Positions 40,468 to 64,000 of a stretch of DNA of 64,000 bases are shown here, piece by piece; within the stretch, counting starts at the first letter, position 1; every line of letters begins with the position of its first letter. Under the pieces are notes generated by a model. The model was not told where the DNA came from and did not search any database. It was given only the letters and a program-made list of their open reading frames with translations. Origin of the DNA: Gammaproteobacteria bacterium 45_16_T64 (GTDB taxonomy: Bacteria; Pseudomonadota; Gammaproteobacteria; Pseudomonadales; Ketobacteraceae); contig MABD01000057.1 of the NCBI GenBank assembly GCA_002162955.1, positions 62,001 to 126,000 on the forward strand, written 5' to 3'. Made by a program: the position numbers and the translations under genes.

Positions 40468-40736
40468 TATCTTTCCTCACCTTAAGCCAACTAACTAGGC
40501 GCTATGAGTCATTTCTCATTTGCGCTCTACATAAATGGCGTTGTTATATACTCTTTTCGGCTCAAAATCCATTCGATGAACAAAGAAGACATAACTTAGT
40601 AATGAGGGTTTTGGGATGCATGGCCCATTATGAATGGTTTTATGTCCCATTTACTCATTACTCATCGCTCATAGATGGCATACTATCGAGTAAATCTCTT
40701 CAAAGACCTCAAAAGAACAACAAAAAAGGCTACATT

Positions 40737-42293
40737 ATGTTTACCTATGCAAAGTCCGCCTGCGCTCTACTCGCATTTTCCTTACCACTGACGACCTATG
40801 CACTACCAATAGACAACCCCGTCAACCAGCAACCCTGGGGGCCGTTGATAGAATTTGCCGGTAACGGTAGTGAAGTAGACGCCATTAGTCGATTAAGGGA
40901 AATCGACCATTTGCAAATGACCATGATGAACCACAGTAAATACGACGATGATACCGAAACCTTTATTGCCGAAATATGGACCCTCGTAGAAAAGTTTAAG
41001 CTTAAAAAACTACATCGATTGCTCCCCGTAAATGTTGATGATTGGAACCAAATATCACTACAAGGTGTACTAGAGGGCGACGAATACTCTGTCACCACAA
41101 CACATCGAAAAAATATCGATAATATTCAGATCACCAACTTTAGTGATTCTCACTTCCTTTTTCGTACCCAAGAAGTCCCTATGGACGATGGGCCTAACCA
41201 CTACATTATCAATAATCAAATAAAGTTAGGATTCGGTGCGCAAAGTTGGCAATCAATGCGTAATGCAACGAATGAATCGCTGCGGCTAATTACCTCTTCT
41301 ACCCTGCCGAAAACACAGCAAGTAGGTGGCGATGACATTCATGAAAAAGTAAAAGCACTCAATATCAATCTTGACTCTCAGGATTTAGAGGTGGTTTCGT
41401 CCTTTTGGTCAGCATTCCCCAATATTTGGGGCTTTATCTCATCTGTCGGCGTTGTAAATGACATTATTTTGGAAGAGGAAAGTACAAACGAGTTCAAACA
41501 TCTTAACATCTCATTTTCTTTAGATGACGGTAAAACAGCAGCGTCCTACCCGGCTTTAACATCGTACCTTGAAGACCTTGAAGATCTGCTCGACGCGTCA
41601 CTAGAAATTCACAATAGCAACGGTCAGTTGTTAAAAATATCCATCGATACAACTGCCAAGAGAGGCAACGTCAAATTGGTCATTGGCAGTGAAGGTCTTA
41701 TTCCCACTAACGGAGACGTCCTTTCCACAAAAACACCCCACAAATTTGACGATAATAGCCATCAACTCACAGGGGTAGTCAATGCCAATGTAGAAATTCT
41801 CGGGGTAAAAACAAAAATCAGTGATTTAGTGTCGACTATCGACTACATACCTAGCGCAGACAAAGTTCAGGCCAATATGCAAATAAACAAGGCGCCTACT
41901 GTTGAGGTAAGCGGCGCGGCGTTAGGCATCTTCCCTACTGCTATGCTTGATGTCTTTATGCCCACAAATATAGACGAAATCATCGGTGAGTTTTTTGAGA
42001 TTGCATGTAAGGGCAATGATGGACAGGGCATCATCAACAACCTTGAATTACGTAATATTGATTCGTCAAATCAAAACGGCTTTACACAATTGTCTGTAGA
42101 TACTCGCTTTGAAACGATCAGCAACCTCTTTGTTCGCATAGGCATGAACATAGTGAATGGCAGGCTCATTCCAAGTAAGGACGCATCCAATGATATAGAT
42201 AAATTTATCAATGATGCGCGCATTGCTTTCAATAACGACATCAATCTTTATGAAAATACTATCCGTGCAAAATCGGTTGCTAGTCGACTATAA
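40737..42293 (+). CDS. Secreted protein of unknown function
   Basis: 518 residues from ATG 40737, preceded by AAGG and followed by a clear signal peptide (cleaved near TYALPID). The frame extends upstream to 40602, but the extra residues look non-coding. The mature protein is acidic and mixed alpha/beta with no Cys-rich region and only one Cys late in the chain. No catalytic motif or known domain is recognised. Alternating polar and hydrophobic strands (GNVKLVIGSEGLI, TGVVNANVEILGVKT) suggest a long lipid-binding-like beta sheet. A shared terminator lies after it. Confidence 0.75.
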   Translation: MFTYAKSACALLAFSLPLTTYALPIDNPVNQQPWGPLIEFAGNGSEVDAISRLREIDHLQMTMMNHSKYDDDTETFIAEIWTLVEKFKLKKLHRLLPVNVDDWNQISLQGVLEGDEYSVTTTHRKNIDNIQITNFSDSHFLFRTQEVPMDDGPNHYIINNQIKLGFGAQSWQSMRNATNESLRLITSSTLPKTQQVGGDDIHEKVKALNINLDSQDLEVVSSFWSAFPNIWGFISSVGVVNDIILEEESTNEFKHLNISFSLDDGKTAASYPALTSYLEDLEDLLDASLEIHNSNGQLLKISIDTTAKRGNVKLVIGSEGLIPTNGDVLSTKTPHKFDDNSHQLTGVVNANVEILGVKTKISDLVSTIDYIPSADKVQANMQINKAPTVEVSGAALGIFPTAMLDVFMPTNIDEIIGEFFEIACKGNDGQGIINNLELRNIDSSNQNGFTQLSVDTRFETISNLFVRIGMNIVNGRLIPSKDASNDIDKFINDARIAFNNDINLYENTIRAKSVASRL

Positions 42294-45372: not shown

Positions 45373-46656
45373 ATGAATCGATCCACTAGAAAATCCATAT
45401 TCCCGCTACTCCTCTGTGCCGCATTGCTCGGATGCGGAGGAGTCTCACTATCTATTTTCGAATGGAAAGTCTCCTACAAGAACCCCGAATGGCAGACATT
45501 CGTTTCTGGGGACGAAATCTACCTTATCACCAGCACCACAGAGGACGTTGATGGTGATACTCGTTGGATTGCCACCTTGGACCAATATAACGGAAAAGAG
45601 AAACTATGGAGTAGCAGCATATTACCGGACGAGCTCACGAGCATAGCCGATGTACAGCTAATAGAGACAAGCCCAACAGACAGACTGATTCATGTCTTTG
45701 GCAATAGCACCACTGGGCTGGAGAGCGTTAGTTTTGATGCTACGGGTTCTCAAATCTATAGAGCGCCTATGGCAGGAACATTCGTTGCTGCAGGCATAAA
45801 TGAACAGACACTCGGTGCTATTACCAACAGAGATGGAGCATATTTCCTGAGCACTTGGAGCAATAATGGGTGGGTGGACATTACTACCTTGACTATCGGT
45901 AGCACTGAACCGAAGCTTGAATCGCTAAATGCCCATTGGATTGTTACGGATACTGATAACAGGCAAATATTAAGTATTGACCAGCAGGGAGCAGCACGCT
46001 GGGAATTTACCTGGGATGAAGGGCAATATCTCACCTCTATCATGGTCGGCACCAACAGCATCGTAGCCGTGAAACGGATTGACGGTAGCAGCGAAAATGA
46101 ATTGCTATACATTGAAGGCGAAACAGGCGACCACAGGTCAATGGTCTATTACAATGCTGATAAAATATTGACGCTGGATGCAACCGATCAAGCCTACCTA
46201 TCAACAGGCACTGCAAACACGCGGCATATCACACACGTGGACCACCTCGGCAATACTCTTTGGCAAAGTAATCAGACTTACGATAGAAGCAACCTGGGTG
46301 CCGCTCAGCTGTCTCCAAACGGTGAACTAGCTGTCACTCATTATACCGAACAGTTTATCGGTACTGATAGCCATGGCAGTATCACTGAATATACCTCGCT
46401 TATTGATATCGTTGGTCAGCAGGGGTTACTAGAGCGGCAATACGCAGCACTTCCCTATCAATTCTCACGCTTTGAAAACTGCGTTGAATACTGCACAGTA
46501 TGGAGCGTAAAAGACGGCTACCACATCTCAAAACTCTTTATTGACGAAGACGAAGAATTCTATGTTCGAGGTGTGATGCCCCGTATTACACTAGGATATT
46601 TTGCTAACCCGACCTATTTCTTCGCAAAAATCGATGCTAAAGACACCGTCAACTAA
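45373..46656 (+). CDS. Lipoprotein with a beta-propeller-like repeat body
   Basis: 427 residues. A lipobox (ALLGC) ends the signal peptide, followed by GGVS. The rest is strand-rich with recurrent W-x-S-x-x or DxxGxxxW turns (TLDQYNGKEKLW, SIDQQGAARWEFTW, HVDHLGNTLWQS) resembling PQQ/WD-type propeller blades, though too diverged to count firmly. A binding or scaffold role in the envelope is likely. No enzyme motif. Alone between the kinase and the nitronate monooxygenase-like gene. Confidence 0.75.
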   Translation: MNRSTRKSIFPLLLCAALLGCGGVSLSIFEWKVSYKNPEWQTFVSGDEIYLITSTTEDVDGDTRWIATLDQYNGKEKLWSSSILPDELTSIADVQLIETSPTDRLIHVFGNSTTGLESVSFDATGSQIYRAPMAGTFVAAGINEQTLGAITNRDGAYFLSTWSNNGWVDITTLTIGSTEPKLESLNAHWIVTDTDNRQILSIDQQGAARWEFTWDEGQYLTSIMVGTNSIVAVKRIDGSSENELLYIEGETGDHRSMVYYNADKILTLDATDQAYLSTGTANTRHITHVDHLGNTLWQSNQTYDRSNLGAAQLSPNGELAVTHYTEQFIGTDSHGSITEYTSLIDIVGQQGLLERQYAALPYQFSRFENCVEYCTVWSVKDGYHISKLFIDEDEEFYVRGVMPRITLGYFANPTYFFAKIDAKDTVN

Positions 46657-55098: not shown

Positions 55099-55367
55099 TA
55101 TCAAATAATCACGATATACCAGGACTTTGGTTTACTTCTAGCCTAGCTCGTAATATGTACAATATTTGAATCCGCGTATTGCGTGACTTCGTACCTTGCT
55201 TTCAATATTCGGTTCACCTAGTATCGATTGAACAATAACAATCGACTTCAAGCCCAAGAATAAAAATAATAAAGGGATAGTCATTCGCCTTACATTTAAT
55301 GAAAGGCGCGTCTCAACAACGTTACTGCTTGAAGTGATTTGGATCATCTCTATGAGACCAACATCAC

Positions 55368-57584
55368 ATGCAACAATTAAAAGACAGTCAAGACACTAAT
55401 CGCAATCCAGCTCTTAATCACCAAACGTACGGTGAACCTGCACTAACAGACCTATCAGCCCCAGCGACAAAGAAGTTCCTACGTACAGGGTCTGTTTTTG
55501 ATCTGTCAGATCGCAGTAACAGACTATCATCTAGCTGGTACGAATTGAGAAGGCACATAGCTAGCTTGCGCCATCAACAACCACAACAGATGACCTGCTC
55601 ACCGCCAACTACTGATCGAAAAACGCCTTCGCCTCTAACAAAAGAGTCAGATTTACTCTCGTCGATTGATAACATCCTTAAACGCGCAAAAACAAAATTG
55701 CTAAATCGAGCAAATGAAAATGGTAGCTGGAACGCCTCTTACTTAGGCGGCGCAACTCACACCAGCCTTAGAACCATTTCGCTATTCTATTTAGAGGCTG
55801 AAGAATCGACGCAACAAAATACGCTCATTATTCGAAATATTCTTTCAATGCAAAAAGAGTGTGGTGGTTACGGTATCTATCCGGCAGGCCCTAGCTCAAA
55901 AGCAGTCTCTCGAATGGCCTATTTAGCCCTTATTTGTTCAATGAATAGCAACGACGGTAAATTACTGGAGGATTCCAATGTCAGAAAAGACGTAGAAAAA
56001 TCTTTAGCCCGAACACGACACTTTGTGGATACCGCGAACGACACCAAAGAATGGCTACTCTACACGTTACTTGCCGACTTCTGTTGGAAACTCACGGCAC
56101 CCAACATTCCGAATACCCTCCCGCACTTTCCTTTTATATCCAATATAATTTATCTTTTTCAAAAGCAAGGAGGATTGGGTCGATTTCAAAGTGTCCTACA
56201 CCAAATCTTACCCGCTATACTTATTCTCCTCCAACCCCAGAAAAAAAAAGCCTCTAAAAATCCAAAATTGAAGGAGCGCTTTCCCTTCACTCTAACTTGG
56301 ATCAAAAATCAATACTTTCGAGCTGAAGGCCTTTTTTCAGAAAAAATGGAACAACAGATTATAGCCTCACAAGATGGGGATGGCGCCTGGGTTGAGACTA
56401 TCGTCGCCACAAGCTTAAACGCGATGGCCCTTAAAAAACGAGGCTTTTCAAAGCACAACAGAACCCTTGCAAACGCGATAAAATATCTACAAGACTCTGC
56501 CGTATACACCGCTAACGACGTACACATTAATTGGGCTACCGGTGACATGTGGGACACCGCCATTCACGCAGACATTTTACATTTTATTGGAAACACCCCT
56601 TCAAAAGATATTATTGATAACATATTCCCTCACTTTATGATGGGAATAAGAGAAGACGATCGCTGGTCCTTTAGTATTCTAGGGCGAATCACTGATAACG
56701 ACTCCTCATCCATGACGTTAGCAACCTTTGCCCATTTGTACCCCTTTATGGATGATTTTCAACAAACCAATGCCAAGACAATCATCACAAGGGTTTGCCA
56801 TGCGCTTTTAGCCCACCAACAAAATGATGGGGGCTGGGCCACTTTCGACGAGCAAGGCATTCAACGCATGGGATACAAAATGCCGACTCCAGAAAAAGGC
56901 GCCTTCTTTGATTTTTCTTCTCCTGACGTAACCGGCCGAGTGACTTTTGGACTGTTAGCAGCCAAATCTTCAGGGGCTTTGCCACATGATCTCGAAGAGA
57001 ACATTCTACGTGCCGTCAAAAAATCGCAAGGATACTTTGCTGCTGTTCAATGTAAGCAAGGCCATGCTGAAGGAAGCTATTGGAGTCGCTGGTTACTTGG
57101 TCCTATTGCAGGAACCTCTTTTACTACCGTTGCATTGCGATGCTCCGGCATCGCTACCGAAAGTCCACTGCTAAAACGCGCCAGAGCATTTGCCCTTCGA
57201 ACTCAACATGCTATTAGTGGGGGCTGGGGGGAGTCTCGTCAAGCAGACTGTCACACCGAAGATGCAGGGCAAGGCCCGACAACCCCACTACAGACGGCAC
57301 TGGCAATCATCACATTAATTGCCAGTAGTAATGATAACGACTCAATGACCGATAATGCCATAGAGCGGGGAATTACGTTTTTATTGGAAACGCAAAATAA
57401 TGGTCACTGGGAAGACAAATGGCCTTTAGGCACAATTCTGACTGGGCTCGACTATTTCATTACCCCTGAAAACAGCGAAGTTGCGATATTGGCATCACTC
57501 ACGCTTTATCGATACTACAAATTTTACGGTGCACAGGCGGCAATATCACATTGGGTCGAAAGGGGGCGCAATGCCAAAATCTAA
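55368..57584 (+). CDS. Divergent squalene-hopene-cyclase-like terpene cyclase
   Basis: 738 residues, about 100 longer at the N-terminus than typical SHC. Alpha-alpha barrel repeats with QW-type motifs: QKECGGYGIY near 165, SQDGDGAW near 335, QQNDGGWATFDEQ near 484, HAISGGWGE near 615 and QNNGHWEDKW near 675. GDMWDTA near 392-398 matches the WDT segment that in SHC lies shortly before the catalytic motif. At that motif SHC has DxDDTA; here it reads DNDSSS (443-448), so the central Asp acid is kept but the next Asp and the Thr-Ala are replaced. It probably cyclises a polyprenoid chain, with product unclear. The ATG of the RND exporter gene lies inside its end (14-bp overlap), implying joint function. 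Confidence 0.82.
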   Translation: MQQLKDSQDTNRNPALNHQTYGEPALTDLSAPATKKFLRTGSVFDLSDRSNRLSSSWYELRRHIASLRHQQPQQMTCSPPTTDRKTPSPLTKESDLLSSIDNILKRAKTKLLNRANENGSWNASYLGGATHTSLRTISLFYLEAEESTQQNTLIIRNILSMQKECGGYGIYPAGPSSKAVSRMAYLALICSMNSNDGKLLEDSNVRKDVEKSLARTRHFVDTANDTKEWLLYTLLADFCWKLTAPNIPNTLPHFPFISNIIYLFQKQGGLGRFQSVLHQILPAILILLQPQKKKASKNPKLKERFPFTLTWIKNQYFRAEGLFSEKMEQQIIASQDGDGAWVETIVATSLNAMALKKRGFSKHNRTLANAIKYLQDSAVYTANDVHINWATGDMWDTAIHADILHFIGNTPSKDIIDNIFPHFMMGIREDDRWSFSILGRITDNDSSSMTLATFAHLYPFMDDFQQTNAKTIITRVCHALLAHQQNDGGWATFDEQGIQRMGYKMPTPEKGAFFDFSSPDVTGRVTFGLLAAKSSGALPHDLEENILRAVKKSQGYFAAVQCKQGHAEGSYWSRWLLGPIAGTSFTTVALRCSGIATESPLLKRARAFALRTQHAISGGWGESRQADCHTEDAGQGPTTPLQTALAIITLIASSNDNDSMTDNAIERGITFLLETQNNGHWEDKWPLGTILTGLDYFITPENSEVAILASLTLYRYYKFYGAQAAISHWVERGRNAKI

Positions 57585-59988
57585 ATACCTCGCCAAGGTA
57601 ACTCCATTTATTGCAGCACAATTGATAGCAAAGCGTCGTAGTTTTCTATTTTGTAGTCTTATCGCCGTCATTATCGCCGTAATAGGAATTCCAAGATTGG
57701 GATTTAACGGTGATTTTCAACAAATGTTCGCCCCATCCAATAGCGACCTACAACAGTTCTCCATCATTCAATCCACCTACGAAAACTCCGAAAAAACCAT
57801 TTTCATGGTCAAACCAATTGCCGGCACATTTCTGAAAAGAAGCAACCTGCAGGCTCTCCATACATTTACAGAACGGCTCTGGCAATTCCCCTATTCTCTT
57901 AGCGTCACATCACTCACTAATTTTCAGCATCTAACATCAACAAACGATACCCTCCTCCTCTCCCCGCTATTACCCAATATTAACGATATTAGCCAACAAC
58001 AACTTGATACCATACACCAATTACTTCAACAAAATTCAGCTCCCCTCGCCTCGCTGCTATCGAGAGACAAGAGCGTTGCCACTATTATTGTAGACCTAGC
58101 CTTGCCTTCAGAGCCTCTCGAACGATTGCCCGCAATTAAGCAACAAGAGCAATTCACAGAAGATTTATCTCAGTTTATTGAAACCGAGCTGCCAGGCACA
58201 ACGTTTCATCATATAGGCGGGCCAGCGTTAGAATGGGCACTACTTGACGTAGTGAGCAAAGATGCTCTCATTCTCCTTCCTATTTGCATCGCTCTGTGCC
58301 TAGGGATACTCGGATTATTGCTGGGCTCAGTGATATCAGTCGTTGGCACAATGCTTACAATCATTGTATCTGTATTAACCACTATGGGATTAGCTGGGTG
58401 GATGGGGTACGAATTATCCCCTTTGTCCCTCTCCGCCCCTACGATGGTAATGCTACTCGCGATGGCAGACAGCATTCATTTACTGACGCAATACACCCTA
58501 GAGCGTAAACCTGGATTAGCAGACACCATTGCGATGGAGAAAAGTATCTCCGCAAACCTCAAACCCATTTTTCTCACCAGTGTCGCAACCGCCGTAGGCT
58601 TTATGTCGGTTAATTTTAGTGACTCACCCGGGTTTCATGACTTCGCAAACATTACCTCCATCGGCGTACTCATCGCCTTACTGGTAACGCTATTTATCCT
58701 GCCAAGTATTTCTCTGTATCTAACGTCGGCCTTTTTGCCTACCGACTCACAGCGCAACGTCAGAAGTTCGCCTTTACCCGCCAAAGTTTGGATGAGGCAG
58801 ATTGGAGAATGGGTAGTGTCGAAACATCGCTGGCTATTTTGGTCAATATTGATCACCACACCCATCGTCATTCTGCAAATCAAACACCTTGAGATAGACG
58901 ACGACATTACCGGATATCTATCCGATGACCTTCCCTTTAAACAAAGTGTCAATTTTTCAAACGATCATTTTTTCGGATTCCATCATATTATCTATTCGTT
59001 AGATACAGGGGTCGAACAAGGCATTAACAATCTCGACTTTCTCAACAACGTGGATAATTTTCAGGTTTGGCTCAAAAAACAAGCTGGCGTCAACCAAGTA
59101 CACAGCTATACCGACATTCTCAAACAAATTAATCACATTATGCTTCCGCAACCTAGCGGAGAGGATAGATTACCGCAATCTCGCGAGCTAGCTTCTCAAT
59201 ACCTCTTACTGTACGAACTTGCGTTACCCGATAGCAATAGCTTACATAGTATGATCAACCTTGACCGCTCGGCCATTCGTATAGTTGTTACGTTAAATGC
59301 CATACCCAACAAACAACTACTGAATATTCAGCAACAATCACTGGTTTGGCTAGAGCAAAACGTGCAGTCAGTAGATATTCATAGTGGCAGTCGATCGTTG
59401 ATGTTTGCCAATATCGGAAACGTAATATTCGAAAGCATGATTATTGGCACTGTCTTTGCCTTACTTTGTATAAGTTTCCTTATTGTTATGGGTATTCGTT
59501 CGCTGCGTTTTGGCATCATCAGTCTATTACCCAATATAACCCCACCAGCTATTGTGTTTGGAGCCTGGGCAATCGCGGTAGGACATGTTAATCAAACTGC
59601 AGCCATCATTTTCAGCGTTAGCTTAGGGCTTGTGGTGGACGATACCATTCATTTCTTATGCAAATATCTTGAAGGTAGAAAACTTGGCTACAGCGCAGAG
59701 AAAAGCATCATAGATACATTCGAAAATGTTGGGGTCGCATTATTTATTACCAGCACAGCGCTCTGTGTCGGATTATGCACCCTGGTATTTTCCTCATTCA
59801 TCCCTAATGTGACAACCGCTATAATGCTAGCTTCGATCATAGCAACAGCACTCGCGTTTGATTTTTTCTTCCTACCGCCTTTGTTGATATTGTTCGAAAA
59901 ACTCTATCCCTATACTAGCACCGCCATACAACCCGCAGCGCCTGAAGAGCAGATCCCTCAGGCAGAACGGCCGATCGCGATGCTTTGA
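57571..59988 (+). CDS. RND/MMPL-family lipid exporter (HpnN-like)
   Basis: 805 residues from ATG 57571, which has AAGGGGG before it; an upstream frame to 57481 lies wholly in the cyclase gene. Two duplicated halves, each with one span, a large periplasmic loop and five spans. The charged spans are MLLAMADSIHLL in the first half and GLVVDDTIHFLCKY in the second, the typical proton-relay positions. This MMPL type includes HpnN, which moves hopanoids to the outer membrane. The overlap with a cyclase gene makes the cyclase product the expected cargo. Its 3' end overlaps the convergent TetR gene by 31 bp. Confidence 0.87.
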   Translation: MPKSKYLAKVTPFIAAQLIAKRRSFLFCSLIAVIIAVIGIPRLGFNGDFQQMFAPSNSDLQQFSIIQSTYENSEKTIFMVKPIAGTFLKRSNLQALHTFTERLWQFPYSLSVTSLTNFQHLTSTNDTLLLSPLLPNINDISQQQLDTIHQLLQQNSAPLASLLSRDKSVATIIVDLALPSEPLERLPAIKQQEQFTEDLSQFIETELPGTTFHHIGGPALEWALLDVVSKDALILLPICIALCLGILGLLLGSVISVVGTMLTIIVSVLTTMGLAGWMGYELSPLSLSAPTMVMLLAMADSIHLLTQYTLERKPGLADTIAMEKSISANLKPIFLTSVATAVGFMSVNFSDSPGFHDFANITSIGVLIALLVTLFILPSISLYLTSAFLPTDSQRNVRSSPLPAKVWMRQIGEWVVSKHRWLFWSILITTPIVILQIKHLEIDDDITGYLSDDLPFKQSVNFSNDHFFGFHHIIYSLDTGVEQGINNLDFLNNVDNFQVWLKKQAGVNQVHSYTDILKQINHIMLPQPSGEDRLPQSRELASQYLLLYELALPDSNSLHSMINLDRSAIRIVVTLNAIPNKQLLNIQQQSLVWLEQNVQSVDIHSGSRSLMFANIGNVIFESMIIGTVFALLCISFLIVMGIRSLRFGIISLLPNITPPAIVFGAWAIAVGHVNQTAAIIFSVSLGLVVDDTIHFLCKYLEGRKLGYSAEKSIIDTFENVGVALFITSTALCVGLCTLVFSSFIPNVTTAIMLASIIATALAFDFFFLPPLLILFEKLYPYTSTAIQPAAPEEQIPQAERPIAML

Positions 59989-60584
59989 ATAACCTGGCGC
60001 AGCGATTCGTCAAAGCCTTCGCCCAACATAATATTATGCGCTTCAACTCTGTAAGATGAACCCCCTAATGAGGTCTCATCTTCACTGGATATAGACGCGG
60101 CGGCATTATTCCTCAGCATCGCCGCACCCAATGTAAAGCTAAGCACCTTATGAAAACTACGATTTGCCTCTGAAGAGGTAAAACCAATCTCAACAAGACG
60201 CTTAACTGCATCTTCAAATACACTCACGGAAGATGCACCAATATTGGTAGAGTTAATCATTAACAATAGATATTCAGGTTCCGCAACGGTCGCTTGATAA
60301 ATATCACTAAAGGTTAAGAACAGCCACTCGTCACACACGGATGTGTCGTGCAACGTATCATGTGCACGCTTTACAAAATCAGCAACCAACGCAGAGACAA
60401 TATCCTGCTTAGTAGCATAATGACTATAGATAGACATAGTCCCTGCATTTAGCGCATTGGCAATTTTTCGAATACTCAGCGCCTCAATGCCCTGTTCTCT
60501 CAACAAGCCTTGCGCTGCTGATAAAATAAGATCCTTACTCAATGATCCTCTAGGTTTTCGTTTTTTAACTTCAGGGACTGACAT
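59958..60584 (-). CDS. TetR-family regulator of the isoprenoid cluster
   Basis: 208 residues. The helix-turn-helix is ALSIRKIANALNAGTMSIYSHYATK near residues 37-61, with a C-terminal ligand domain. Third gene of the operon after the desaturase and TIM-barrel genes (19 bp after the latter). Convergent, with a 31-bp overlap, to the RND exporter gene, so the transcripts oppose each other. The palindromic array at 63073-63105 upstream of the operon is its likely operator. Confidence 0.9.
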   Translation of the reverse strand: MSVPEVKKRKPRGSLSKDLILSAAQGLLREQGIEALSIRKIANALNAGTMSIYSHYATKQDIVSALVADFVKRAHDTLHDTSVCDEWLFLTFSDIYQATVAEPEYLLLMINSTNIGASSVSVFEDAVKRLVEIGFTSSEANRSFHKVLSFTLGAAMLRNNAAASISSEDETSLGGSSYRVEAHNIMLGEGFDESLRQVIQSIAIGRSA

Positions 60585-60603
60585 CGTAATTTGCTCACTA
60601 CGT

Positions 60604-62055
60604 TCAACGTACAGTTAATCTGGGTGCTTGTATATTGTTCCACAGTTTAACGTAAAATCGCGTATATATCCGCTCCATGAGGACTGATAGCGAAAACAGC
60701 GCTCTTCGTCTGTACGCCAACTGACCATCATACTGATGCTCACCGGTTGCAAACACAGGGTTTATCAACCGTATGTTCTTCAGCCTATCGGTTGAATCTC
60801 TCAATGCCTTCAATTGGCCCACCGTAACTTCTTTTCCAAGCACCCATTCTCCGACATTCAAGCTCAGCTGAATATCTGGATAGCATCGTTGTAAAGCCAC
60901 CGTACGTTTATCATCATGAGTTAACGTGTTTCTCTTGGTCTCTAGGCATAAACGTCTATCCTTTGATTGCTCCATTAAATACGATGAAATCAATTCTTCA
61001 TATCGATGAAAAGACGAACTGCTATCACCCAAAAATACACGAATAGTCTTGGCATTTTTTAAGTGTGGATCTTTCAATACAGACCAATCATCAGGGGTTT
61101 TAACTATGACGCAGGGGGAATCTGCATCTTCTTTCAGCGCGTTAACCGATTGACGATTACTCGTTGTAAACGCACTCGATGACGGCCCTTCAAAGCAAGA
61201 CTCAGCAAACTGCTTTAACTCTACACTCTGTTCATAGCGATTAACCTGATCATGATGACCACTGCTTGTTCGCTCTATATCTGAATAACCCGTAATTGTG
61301 GGTAAAAGTTCAGGCGCAACAATCAATACATCCCCATGAGATGCATTTTTTTGGAATAGAGAAAATGTGGTACGTAATAGATGTTGCAGCAAGCGCATTT
61401 CCGACAGCTCTGGCTTTGATATTTGTATATGCTCACTATTCGCGGGTCGCAAGTGAATATAACAAACGCGCTCTAATATTGGCGTAATATAGCGAAGTGT
61501 GTCCTCTGTAAATGTTTCGCACCACCGATACGTTGTAATATAGTGAGAAAAATCCGCATTAAAACGTATACCAGGGTATGTCTTTATCATCTCCTGAACG
61601 ATATCAATATCCTGCGTTACAGTGCCTCTATGCAATTCAAGGTATATCGGTAGCTCACAGGACTCGCTAACATCCAACACAAGCTCAGCTATTGCTAATG
61701 CTTCCGTTAACGTTTCGGCTCCTGAGCCAATCATTATCGTGGCACATTGATACCCTTGGCGTTTCCACTTTTTCGCTCTCGCAAAAAGATTGGAACAGCT
61801 AACAATTCCCGCCGCACTTAGCTTCAGTCCGCTTTGTTTTGACTTCTTTAAGGATGGGTTAAGTAATAAGTGGCTCTGCAACCCTTCGAAGCCATCATCT
61901 TTGATACGACAATAATCTTCGGCGGACATGCCAAAAAGTTTCATTCTCGGCGCTGTGAACTTCGATGGCAACCCAGTAATCGAAAACAGATTAATGTGAT
62001 GCTCTAACGTTGGTTCTTGAACACTTCCATTATTAACATAGGGTGTCAAATACAT
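60604..62055 (-). CDS. Protein of two TIM-barrel-like halves (sugar phosphate isomerase / AP endonuclease 2-like), function unknown
   Basis: 483 residues. The two halves carry the same pattern: near residues 145-175 LELHRGTVTQDIDIV, then YPGIRFNADFSHY; near residues 390-425 LETKRNTLTHDDKRTVALQ, then YPDIQLSLNVGEW. This suggests an internal duplication of a xylose-isomerase-type barrel half. The Glu in LELHR and the Asp-His in NADFSHY are plausible metal ligands in the first half; the second keeps Glu but has NVGEW, so it may be inactive. ATG overlaps the desaturase stop by one base, so they are coupled. Substrate is unknown; a lipid head-group sugar is one possibility. Confidence 0.75.
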   Translation of the reverse strand: MYLTPYVNNGSVQEPTLEHHINLFSITGLPSKFTAPRMKLFGMSAEDYCRIKDDGFEGLQSHLLLNPSLKKSKQSGLKLSAAGIVSCSNLFARAKKWKRQGYQCATIMIGSGAETLTEALAIAELVLDVSESCELPIYLELHRGTVTQDIDIVQEMIKTYPGIRFNADFSHYITTYRWCETFTEDTLRYITPILERVCYIHLRPANSEHIQISKPELSEMRLLQHLLRTTFSLFQKNASHGDVLIVAPELLPTITGYSDIERTSSGHHDQVNRYEQSVELKQFAESCFEGPSSSAFTTSNRQSVNALKEDADSPCVIVKTPDDWSVLKDPHLKNAKTIRVFLGDSSSSFHRYEELISSYLMEQSKDRRLCLETKRNTLTHDDKRTVALQRCYPDIQLSLNVGEWVLGKEVTVGQLKALRDSTDRLKNIRLINPVFATGEHQYDGQLAYRRRALFSLSVLMERIYTRFYVKLWNNIQAPRLTVR

Positions 62056-63038
62056 CAGTCACTCTCCTTTAGTCGAAAAGGAAGCAAGAATTGATTTGCG
62101 ACTCCCCCGCCATCCACTCCACTCACACCAATTTCCGTCGGTTCCAAATCTTGCTTTGGCAGCATCCAAGTACCAAATACAAGGTCCCAAATTATCAAAT
62201 TGCTACCGTAATTATGGTTTGCCATCGAGGTATCTTTTACATGGTGCCAGCGATGTAATTCTGGAGAGGATACTATGTAGTTCAACCAGCCAAATCGAAC
62301 ATCAGCATTTCCATGCTGCCAGAAACCATGCATCACACTAAAAGTCGTCGCTAGGTAGATGACAGTGACGTCGGCACCCAAAGCAATTGCAGGTACATTC
62401 GCAACAACGGGCAAGGCGATGATATCGAAATAATGAAAGCGCGTCGCATTCAGCCAATACAGTTTATCAGGATTATGATGTACACAGTGCACCCGCCATA
62501 GTAACCACTTTTCATGTTCCAAACGGTGCAACCAGTACGTCATAAATTCTGCTAACACCAAGAATAAAACCACTTGTAACACCAAAGGCCAGTCGTTCGG
62601 CCACAAGGAAACGCCAAACCAGGTTGATACAACACCAGCCGCACCAGCCATTGCAATAGCAACAAAAAACTCCGCTCTTAATAGGACGTTGTTTAGGATA
62701 AACAGGCCCACATCACTGAAGATATTCGCTTTCCATTCCGGCCTCCATGCTGCACTAAAACTCTGAAAGCGCTCCATAAGGTAAACCCAGATACCCGATA
62801 TAAATACTGGTAGCACGTACATTAAATATTTGTGGAGGTCAGCATCGTGTAAAGCAAGCACGTTGCCAAAAATGCTCAGCTCGAAAACAATGTTATTACT
62901 CGCTAAAGGCAGCTTATTAGCCATCCAAAAAGCAAAGCCCATCCCAATAATCATGACTGCGGGATAGCTTCCCCACGCGAACAACCGCCGAATGAGCCCC
63001 ATCGAATTGTTTGTTGGTTGGTCTATTAATCTATCCAC
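62055..63038 (-). CDS. Sterol desaturase / fatty acid hydroxylase family membrane di-iron enzyme
   Basis: 327 residues with about five membrane spans. The histidine clusters that bind two irons are present: YWLHRLEHEKWLLWRVHCVHHN near residue 165, HGFWQHGNAD near 235, and ELHRWHHVKDTSMANHNYG near 260. The family hydroxylates or desaturates sterols, carotenoids or lipid chains using oxygen. First gene of a three-gene operon and convergent to the cyclase-exporter pair, so it may oxidise the cyclised isoprenoid. An operator-like palindrome array lies 35 bp upstream. Confidence 0.93.
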   Translation of the reverse strand: MDRLIDQPTNNSMGLIRRLFAWGSYPAVMIIGMGFAFWMANKLPLASNNIVFELSIFGNVLALHDADLHKYLMYVLPVFISGIWVYLMERFQSFSAAWRPEWKANIFSDVGLFILNNVLLRAEFFVAIAMAGAAGVVSTWFGVSLWPNDWPLVLQVVLFLVLAEFMTYWLHRLEHEKWLLWRVHCVHHNPDKLYWLNATRFHYFDIIALPVVANVPAIALGADVTVIYLATTFSVMHGFWQHGNADVRFGWLNYIVSSPELHRWHHVKDTSMANHNYGSNLIIWDLVFGTWMLPKQDLEPTEIGVSGVDGGGVANQFLLPFRLKESD

Positions 63039-63072
63039 ACTACCCCCTAAGATAAAGATAAGCGCACGTTAG

Positions 63073-63105
63073 CGTACACCGTACTTTTAAAAGGTACAGT
63101 GTACG
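63073..63105. promoter_or_regulatory. Palindromic array, candidate TetR operator
   Basis: CGTACAC at 63073-63079 mirrors GTGTACG at 63099-63105 around a TTTTAAAA centre. Within it are two 11-mers of the form GTACA-N-NGTAC (63074-63084, one mismatch; 63094-63104, perfect palindrome) spaced 20 bp apart, two helical turns. Located 35 bp before the desaturase start. Confidence 0.6.
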
Positions 63106-63148: not shown

Positions 63149-63715
63149 TTAGGCCTTGTCGGGAGAAGTAAGACAAGCTAGCTCGTAGTATTGGTTGCTG
63201 TTGAACTCAAACTCCTGAATAACCTCCAAGTTCGCCTTTCTAACATGCGCCTCGTAAGAGCGGGGATTCACCTTATTGATAAAGGTAACTAGAACAGGGT
63301 AACGCGTGGACATCTTCTGTAATGAAAACTTGAATATATGCTCAAAGACCCCTTCACCACGCACACTCTTGTCTACACACACAGGGCCATACTGATAGGA
63401 ATTTTCAACACTCAGTCTATGTCCTGCATATTCCAATAGAGGAAGCCCCTCTATCATATGAGCGAACATAGGCCATTGTGACCAGTATTGCCAAGATGCC
63501 GCCATTACGTAAGCAACAATGGTGTTATCACGCTTAGCGACAAATAGTCCACTCTCATTGATGATCAGGTCACGCATGTGGGTTTCTGTAAAGGCGGTGG
63601 TAATAAAGCCATCGGCTTTGTCTTGCTCACTGATAGAATCTATTTGATAACGATAATGTAACGCTAACACCTCTGGTATATCATCAACCTGTGCTACCTG
63701 TAGTTCTAGACTCAT
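63149..63715 (-). CDS. GNAT-like acetyltransferase family protein
   Basis: 188 residues from ATG 63715, which has GAGGAG 8-10 bases upstream; a longer form from 63733 would overlap the upstream gene. The strand order fits a GNAT fold: LQVAQVDDIPEVLALHYRYQ at the start, LFVAKRDNTIVAYVMAAS, then PVCVDKSVRGEGVFEHIF, where R-G-E-G stands in the acetyl-CoA loop position, and INKVNPRSYEAHVRKANLEVI. Substrate unknown. 14 bp after the partial gene upstream. Confidence 0.82.
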   Translation of the reverse strand: MSLELQVAQVDDIPEVLALHYRYQIDSISEQDKADGFITTAFTETHMRDLIINESGLFVAKRDNTIVAYVMAASWQYWSQWPMFAHMIEGLPLLEYAGHRLSVENSYQYGPVCVDKSVRGEGVFEHIFKFSLQKMSTRYPVLVTFINKVNPRSYEAHVRKANLEVIQEFEFNSNQYYELACLTSPDKA

Positions 63716-63729
63716 GAATTGTACTCTCC

Positions 63730-64000
63730 TCAATAATTTTTTATTTCTACGCTTTTTGTGACCAAGCCCATCTTACTTATTTGGCTGAGACGCCCTTTCG
63801 CTTCCATGAAGGATCGAAACTTTGGAATGACACGGATTAACACACTCATCACTACACGAAAAGGTACAAAGATAACGGGGTACCACGGCGTCACGCCGGA
63901 GGGTAAGCCTAAATTTTTTAATTGACGTCGACTAAGGAAATAGGAAGTGAAGCTAAGGGACTTATGATAATCAAACATGATCCGTGCGCTGTGTAACGAA
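63730..64000 (-). CDS. C-terminal part of an unrecognised protein (truncated by window edge)
   Basis: The frame stays open past the internal ATG at 63978 to the window edge, so this is likely the 3' part of a longer gene. About 90 residues are visible, including a basic stretch and a proline-bounded hydrophobic segment (TPWYPVIFVPFRVVMSVLIR). It could be the tail of an MpaB/DUF2236-type oxygenase, but that is a guess. It is 14 bp before the GNAT gene and likely in the same transcript. Confidence 0.55.
   Translation of the reverse strand, partial: SLHSARIMFDYHKSLSFTSYFLSRRQLKNLGLPSGVTPWYPVIFVPFRVVMSVLIRVIPKFRSFMEAKGRLSQISKMGLVTKSVEIKNY

Follow-up and report, generated by a model that had tools for sequence, protein, structure and literature searches.

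Do the five tightly packed genes near the end of a 64,000-nucleotide (nt) stretch of the genome of Gammaproteobacteria bacterium 45_16_T64 encode a single pathway that makes, oxidizes, perhaps decorates, and exports a cyclized isoprenoid, as an initial annotation had proposed, or do they belong to separate units? The stretch, referred to below as the window, comprises positions 62,001 to 126,000 of the forward strand of contig MABD01000057.1 (assembly GCA_002162955.1), and the locus under study occupies window positions 55368 to 63105, its right-hand boundary being the end of a palindrome and of no coding region; coordinates are window positions unless a locus label precedes them (Table 1). 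The list of open reading frames (ORFs) bore out the five genes and the overlaps described for them: 14 bp between the cyclase and RND genes (the RND ATG at 57571 lies within the end of the cyclase gene), 1 bp between the hydroxylase and TIM-barrel genes, and 31 bp (59958 to 59988) between the converging RND and TetR genes. Pfam identified SQHop_cyclase_C, SQHop_cyclase_N, MMPL, TetR_N, and FA_hydroxylase domains in the predicted products, while the TIM-barrel-type protein had no Pfam match at E ≤ 10. The reading that we favor, tentatively and with somewhat less than even confidence, is that the locus consists of two adjoining units: unit A on the plus strand, a cyclase-exporter pair that would turn some substrate other than the cell's own squalene into a short-cascade (mono- or bicyclic) prenyl lipid and export it, and unit B on the minus strand, a separate hydroxylase-TIM-TetR unit.

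The cyclase was recognized by PF13243 (113 bits; cut-off, 26.1) and PF13249 (60.6 bits; cut-off, 26.2), which places it in the squalene-hopene cyclase (SHC) superfamily, and it was the sole SQHop_cyclase_C match in the genome at E ≤ 0.001. Its nearest solved chain is an SHC (E = 1.8e-22). However, it scored far below the cut-off of the SHC model TIGR01507 (117.9 bits versus 431.1), and also below those of TIGR01787 (116.9 versus 322.7), the oxidosqualene cyclase (OSC) model TIGR03463 (66.2 versus 851), and TIGR04277 (39.1 versus 500). We gathered 126 relatives (3 from the order, 29 from the class, 80 from a genome-contig scan, and 14 from the phylum) and aligned 124 of them after two short ones (L133 and L140) were dropped; the class and phylum sets represent 29 of the 50 non-self class matches and 14 of the 30 phylum matches, and the relatives, having been found by pattern or similarity, are skewed to ordinary SHCs. 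The cyclase retains 52 of the 95 columns that are conserved in at least 93% of the aligned relatives, with the next lowest row retaining 87. Among the retained positions are the DXDD Asp pair D443 and D445 (SHC D374 and D376), W395 (W312), F435 (F365), and W575 (W489), whose columns are invariant in all 124 relatives. R574 is likewise retained, as are many of the Q, G, and W residues in the QxxxGxW-like repeats. The SHC numbering up to 606 follows the printed 2sqc alignment where shown; for D374, D376, D377, F365, Y609, and Y612 we use the numbers that we take to be the standard ones, and D377 and Y609 also appear in the papers cited below.

The cyclase differs from SHCs in its N-terminal extension of ~95 aa and in several motifs. 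Instead of a complete DXDD, the cyclase has DNDS, with Ser446 in the column of SHC D377, where 123 of the 124 relatives have Asp. I690, L691, and D695 occupy the columns of SHC G600, F601, and F605 (G, F, and F in all 124 relatives), the GDW motif is deleted, both G residues, the N, and the final Y of GRWGxNYxYGT are gone, and the C-terminal FYLxYxxY segment is replaced. The equivalents of Y609 and Y612 depend on the alignment, an ungapped one giving T699 and N702 and others opening a gap. We rejected R524 (SHC H451 column) and F493 (SHC Y420 column) as oddities and did not use them as evidence, because they are usual among the relatives (of 126 counted before five rows were corrected, 99 have R and 120 have F at these columns, respectively). 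OSCs share a superfamily with the cyclase, and in them, too, a single acidic residue is taken to start the reaction, but the cyclase has DNDSSS in place of their DCxAE motif, which is present in all five OSC-like loci (one of which passes the TIGR03463 cut-off). With the DxDTT class II cyclases, such as the HAD-type drimenol synthases, it shares a class II motif without the fourth Asp, but its domain architecture differs, with no HAD family among its Pfam matches at E ≤ 0.1. Judged on these comparisons, the protein is a very divergent member of the SHC superfamily with an apparently intact frame.

In the sampled genomes, the cyclase protein found matches in 3 of 292 others from the order (E ≤ 1e-8; 28 to 30% identity), 49 of 368 from the class (E ≤ 1e-10; 24 to 36% identity over parts of the protein), and 30 of 397 from the phylum (E ≤ 1e-15; the best E value corresponding to 36% identity over residues 457 to 683), and there was no match at E ≤ 0.01 in the four congeners, which are all the other genomes of the genus. 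An alignment-based scan of genome contigs gave at least 526 relatives among 587 pattern matches, the best 80 of the at least 526 being 22 to 33% identical to the cyclase. Forty-seven plasmid records had matches, all below 60% identity and none with one place spanning 80% of the protein. Single-protein scans of genome contigs and viral contigs, which could show close relatives only because each used six exact 8-residue peptides, returned no relative. The cyclase is thus rare in the genomes examined, which are not all genomes. Its codon usage score (0.040, versus −0.012 to 0.037 for 26 window genes) is not unlike that of the window and neither shows nor excludes recent transfer. We also built a tree, without bootstrap, from the cyclase starting at residue 96, 45 of the 124 SHC-type rows (seven picked and 38 random), and five OSC-type rows. 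In this tree, the cyclase fell outside both the SHC-type and the OSC-type groups (SH-aLRT, 93), a placement that long-branch and composition warnings make unsafe, and for that reason we use the tree only to say that the cyclase does not nest within the sampled rows. Among the publications listed for relatives that are class II, divergent, or independent of squalene, none described the cyclase in its title or in the opening of its abstract, which is not proof of absence.

Regarding substrate supply, we found no match to PF00494 (SQS_PSY) at E ≤ 1 in the genome, which is 96.98% complete, while a control search gave matches in 9 of 14 genomes, 7 of them over the cut-off. The HpnC and HpnD proteins presumably belong to the same family. 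The initial annotation had described the locus as unlike a standard hopanoid cluster, and this description held: there was no SQS_PSY match, the cyclase lay outside the hopene-cyclase and OSC groups subject to the long-branch warning given above, and no hpn model scored above its cut-off among ten proteins compared with NCBIfam (at least nine further nearby ORFs were compared with Pfam only, and hpn genes elsewhere in the genome were probed through PF13243 and PF00494 only). A cyclase inside the ordinary hopene cyclases, together with a hop operon elsewhere, had been named as an outcome that would tell against the proposed pathway, and this is not what we found. The genome encodes two polyprenyl synthases at E ≤ 0.01, which we take from their sequences to be one IspB-like protein and one IspA-like protein beside a dxs-like gene, so that farnesyl and octaprenyl chains would be the obvious home-made substrates, with scavenged squalene as the main alternative.

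Some of the altered positions of the cyclase have been mutated in characterized enzymes. Ser446 lies at the same place as the D377C change in AaSHC, which made monocyclic 3-deoxyachilleol the main product in place of pentacyclic hopene (PMC6127371). In the enzyme variants Y609C, Y609L, and Y609S, the aborted product A-P1 was the major one, at 42.9 to 72.3% (PMC4191879), and a DxDTT cyclase depends strictly on its middle Asp, even though its fourth residue is not Asp (PMC9128629). The pattern of retained and lost residues suggests a class II enzyme that would still protonate an alkene but stop early.

The exporter belongs to the MMPL/RND proteins (PF03176, 84.3 bits; cut-off, 20.5), and HAE3 was its best NCBIfam match, although below the cut-off (152.9 versus 351.9 bits). 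It had first been described as HpnN-type, a description that we rejected on the model scores (TIGR03480, 107.9 bits with a cut-off of 751.85; NF052374, 20.8 bits with a cut-off of 1100); the best full-length relatives seen were instead ole-linked RND proteins, in a search for RND relatives that was confined to the family. This DNA search of the family gave short RND matches in four genomes, of which G066, G214, and G151 were examined and G1009 (37 bases) was left out. The three homologues are 33 to 34% identical to the exporter over ~740 aa, and each lies within a gene row of like size and order (L169:3358-9945, L170, and L171). The L169 row, which was scanned by models, encodes the RND protein, an unmatched 444-aa protein, a KAS III-like protein, a second KAS-like protein, and a reductase that matches OleD-type models best (348.1 bits; cut-off, 580); the rows in L170 and L171 were judged by ORF size and first residues. 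All three loci hold a compact ole-like gene set with an RND gene of its own. By these comparisons, the exporter is a lipid-type RND transporter whose kin accompany ole-like genes, whereas its own partner gene is the cyclase gene. The ole-like company of its kin fits the export of a hydrophobic cyclase product, without proving it.

Under the two-unit reading, unit A would be a two-gene set that, in its genus, is found only in this genome. D445, which aligns with SHC D376, would protonate the terminal isoprene of the substrate, and, given Ser as the fourth DXDD residue and the loss of the C-terminal aromatic segment, cyclization would most likely halt once one or two rings have formed. In view of the lack of a squalene synthase match, the substrate would probably be a cell-made prenyl chain, either farnesyl or octaprenyl (including quinones derived from the latter). 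The HAE3/MMPL transporter, whose gene overlaps that of the cyclase, would move the cyclized lipid out of the inner membrane. Several points weigh against this reading. A squalene synthase could sit in the missing part of the incomplete genome; an otherwise ordinary SHC relative (L023:1375-3342) has a natural DLDS, so that a Ser in the fourth DXDD position does not by itself imply a new product; the direction of export and its substrate are guesses from the family and the ole-linked homologues; no orthologue was found against which purifying selection on the cyclase could be demonstrated; and its end branch of 7.12, versus a median of 0.42, also fits decay or a non-enzymatic role. In addition, mutant effects in one SHC need not transfer to a protein that is ~25% identical, and AaSHC D377C is reported to be far less active than the unmutated enzyme, while BmeTC with the corresponding D373C change formed 3-deoxyachilleol but kept its bicyclic product (PMC6127371). 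A bolder form of the proposal would make the cyclase a new class II branch, in which a natural DxDS enzyme, in a cell without squalene synthase, places one or two rings on farnesyl or on the octaprenyl tail of ubiquinone and a dedicated RND transporter handles the resulting undescribed cyclized membrane or secreted lipid; we hold this to be possible but rather doubtful. If active, the cyclase would be a natural member of the squalene-cyclase family apparently cut off from squalene and a pointer to an undescribed bacterial lipid. The remaining interest of the locus lies in a strongly altered, apparently intact cyclase that is overlapped with an exporter in a genome with no detected squalene synthase.

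The first alternative to be weighed, which we consider unlikely though still serious, is a toroid protein with lost or changed catalytic function, whose gene is decaying or which serves the RND protein as a lipid-binding partner. The very long end branch, the 43 of 95 near-invariant columns that are not retained, and the lack of a closer relative in the searches made are all consistent with such a loss. On the other side are the intact 738-aa frame with its unexceptional codon usage, the retention of the Asp pair, of W395, F435, and W575, and of the Q and W/G positions of several repeats, and the overlap with an intact transporter frame.

More unlikely still is an unusual but functional squalene cyclase that would use scavenged squalene, or squalene from an undetected synthase, to form a hopanoid-like or partly cyclized triterpene. 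Squalene-hopene cyclases provide both the best NCBIfam model and the best solved relative, much of the fold framework aligns, and a genome of 96.98% completeness leaves room for a synthase. This explanation has to contend with the TIGR01507 score, the absence of any SQS_PSY match at E ≤ 1, and the loss of the G600/F601/F605-type residues and of the FYLxYxxY segment.

That all five genes serve one pathway making, oxidizing, decorating, and exporting a cyclized isoprenoid appears improbable, and we rejected it as the leading explanation, despite the tight packing and convergent overlap and the fact that the FA_hydroxylase superfamily includes sterol-acting enzymes. The hydroxylase is a member of this superfamily (PF04116, 95.2 bits; cut-off, 31) with the His motifs HRLEH, HCVHH, and HRWHH; the nearest NCBIfam model, OlsE (NF052566), gave 178.4 bits versus a cut-off of 475, and unlike OlsE-type hydroxylases it has a TetR partner and no ols genes in the stretches seen. 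In three of the four congeners (G254, G274, and G1008), a hydroxylase (68 to 70% identity) is directly followed by a TetR gene (53 to 59%), with no TIM-barrel gene between them and no TIM-barrel, cyclase, or exporter gene within the 12 to 14 kb examined; the fourth, G1007, had no hydroxylase match. Upstream of the pair, five ORFs are 86 to 93% alike in the three congeners. Downstream in G254, the pair is followed by an ORF that from its sequence encodes an MFS-type transporter and by a 197-aa ORF, neither of them matched in G274 or G1008, and two further G254 ORFs are 73 to 83% alike in G274 (the G1008 stretch ends there). None of the congener flanking ORFs matched the 19.9-kb stretch around the locus. 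Among the best 80 of the at least 526 cyclase-relative loci, whose flanks were up to 10 kb and in many cases shorter, none had a hydroxylase, TIM-barrel, or TetR match at E ≤ 1e-6; an MMPL match (22%) was present at one of them. Because neither these 80 loci nor the congeners share the set, the genes are not conserved together, an outcome that the initial annotation had itself named as evidence against its proposal.

The element upstream of the hydroxylase gene also argues for separate units. The full 33-bp palindrome (63073 to 63105) has a single occurrence in the genome when up to 3 mismatches are allowed, and it stands before the hydroxylase only, not before the cyclase. Similar half-sites follow TTGACA at the matching place before the hydroxylase in all four genomes (this one and three congeners), as direct repeats in G254 and G274 and as one clear copy in G1008; in G254, their position upstream of the hydroxylase requires that its start codon be the ATG at ~6421 of L166 rather than the frame's first ATG (6298). 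The argument rests on this placement because half-site counts alone are not significant: when L166, L168, and L167 were each shuffled 200 times, two or more matches occurred in 21, 22, and 10 cases, respectively, and five or more occurred in 5 of 100 shuffles of the window, where half-sites (≤1 mismatch) lie in the palindrome, at 55427 within the cyclase gene, and at 62480 within the hydroxylase gene, with 2.07 expected by chance. We take the palindrome as a candidate TetR operator of the hydroxylase unit only. The single pathway is in our view better replaced by two units that seem to be independently controlled, with unit B as the self-regulated hydroxylase operon of the genus, which the TIM-barrel gene would have entered; the product of unit A need not be its substrate.

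The TIM-barrel gene lies between the hydroxylase and TetR genes here alone, and its G274 homologue (52% over 482 aligned columns) is at another place. The protein had been described as a double TIM barrel. This was borne out in part: eight proteins of single-barrel size match stretches within residues 48 to 300, and the C-terminal 178 residues resemble a repeat that is degenerate and incomplete (hhalign E = 7.5e-5; probability, 62%). Full-length homologues were found in 2 of 193 other genomes of the order, with 4 more partial, and in none of 368 other genomes of the class, with 4 partial. E140, D168, H201, and E249 are invariant in four of four sequences, a ligand set that we assume to be typical of metal-dependent TIM-barrel isomerases. 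In G088 (L043:34-2144), a TIM homologue overlaps a cytochrome P450 gene, and that stretch also carries an FA_hydroxylase gene and a 3-beta-HSD-like gene.

Least probable by far is that the cyclase uses a polyene of non-isoprenoid nature, for instance a long-chain polyunsaturated hydrocarbon of the ole type, which the ole-related RND protein would export, since to our knowledge class II cyclases act on methyl-branched alkenes, although the three family-level RND homologues do lie in ole-like gene sets. In its favor, a 31:9 polyene is made via Pfa and Ole in some marine gammaproteobacteria (PMC6463001).

Table 1. Predicted features in and around the locus, in window coordinates
Feature	Position	Strand	Details
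Weak candidate operator, inverted repeat	55286..55308		11-bp arms (91%), ~60 bp upstream of cyclase start; may be chance; sequence unlike the hydroxylase palindrome
Divergent class II terpene cyclase, SHC superfamily	55368..57584	+	738 aa; DxDS replacing DxDD; ~95-aa N-terminal extension
HAE3/MMPL-type RND transporter	57571..59988	+	805 aa from ATG 57571; alternative TTG start at 57481
TetR regulator, third gene of hydroxylase operon	59958..60584	-	ORF list and Pfam TetR_N
TIM-barrel-type protein, partial C-terminal repeat	60604..62055	-	483 aa
FA_hydroxylase (sterol desaturase) superfamily, membrane di-iron-type protein	62055..63038	-	GTG start; Pfam
Palindrome, candidate TetR operator	63073..63105	none	33 bp; after TTGACA
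Weak GNAT-like gene	63149..63733	-	PF00583, 14.6 bits, below cut-off; upstream gene, 4-bp overlap with the next; probably a separate unit
MpaB/rubber-oxygenase-type gene, 3' end	63730..64000 (L046:15731-17065 in extended stretch)	-	444 aa; extends beyond the window

The MpaB/rubber-oxygenase family, represented by the last gene of the window, includes enzymes that cleave isoprenoid chains. Elsewhere in the window, the ORFs at 40602 to 42293 (563 aa) and 45373 to 46656 (427 aa) had no Pfam match at E ≤ 1e-4. Just beyond the window, a 138-aa ORF (L046:17258-17674) contains two copies of a YYGGWNGQW-like motif.

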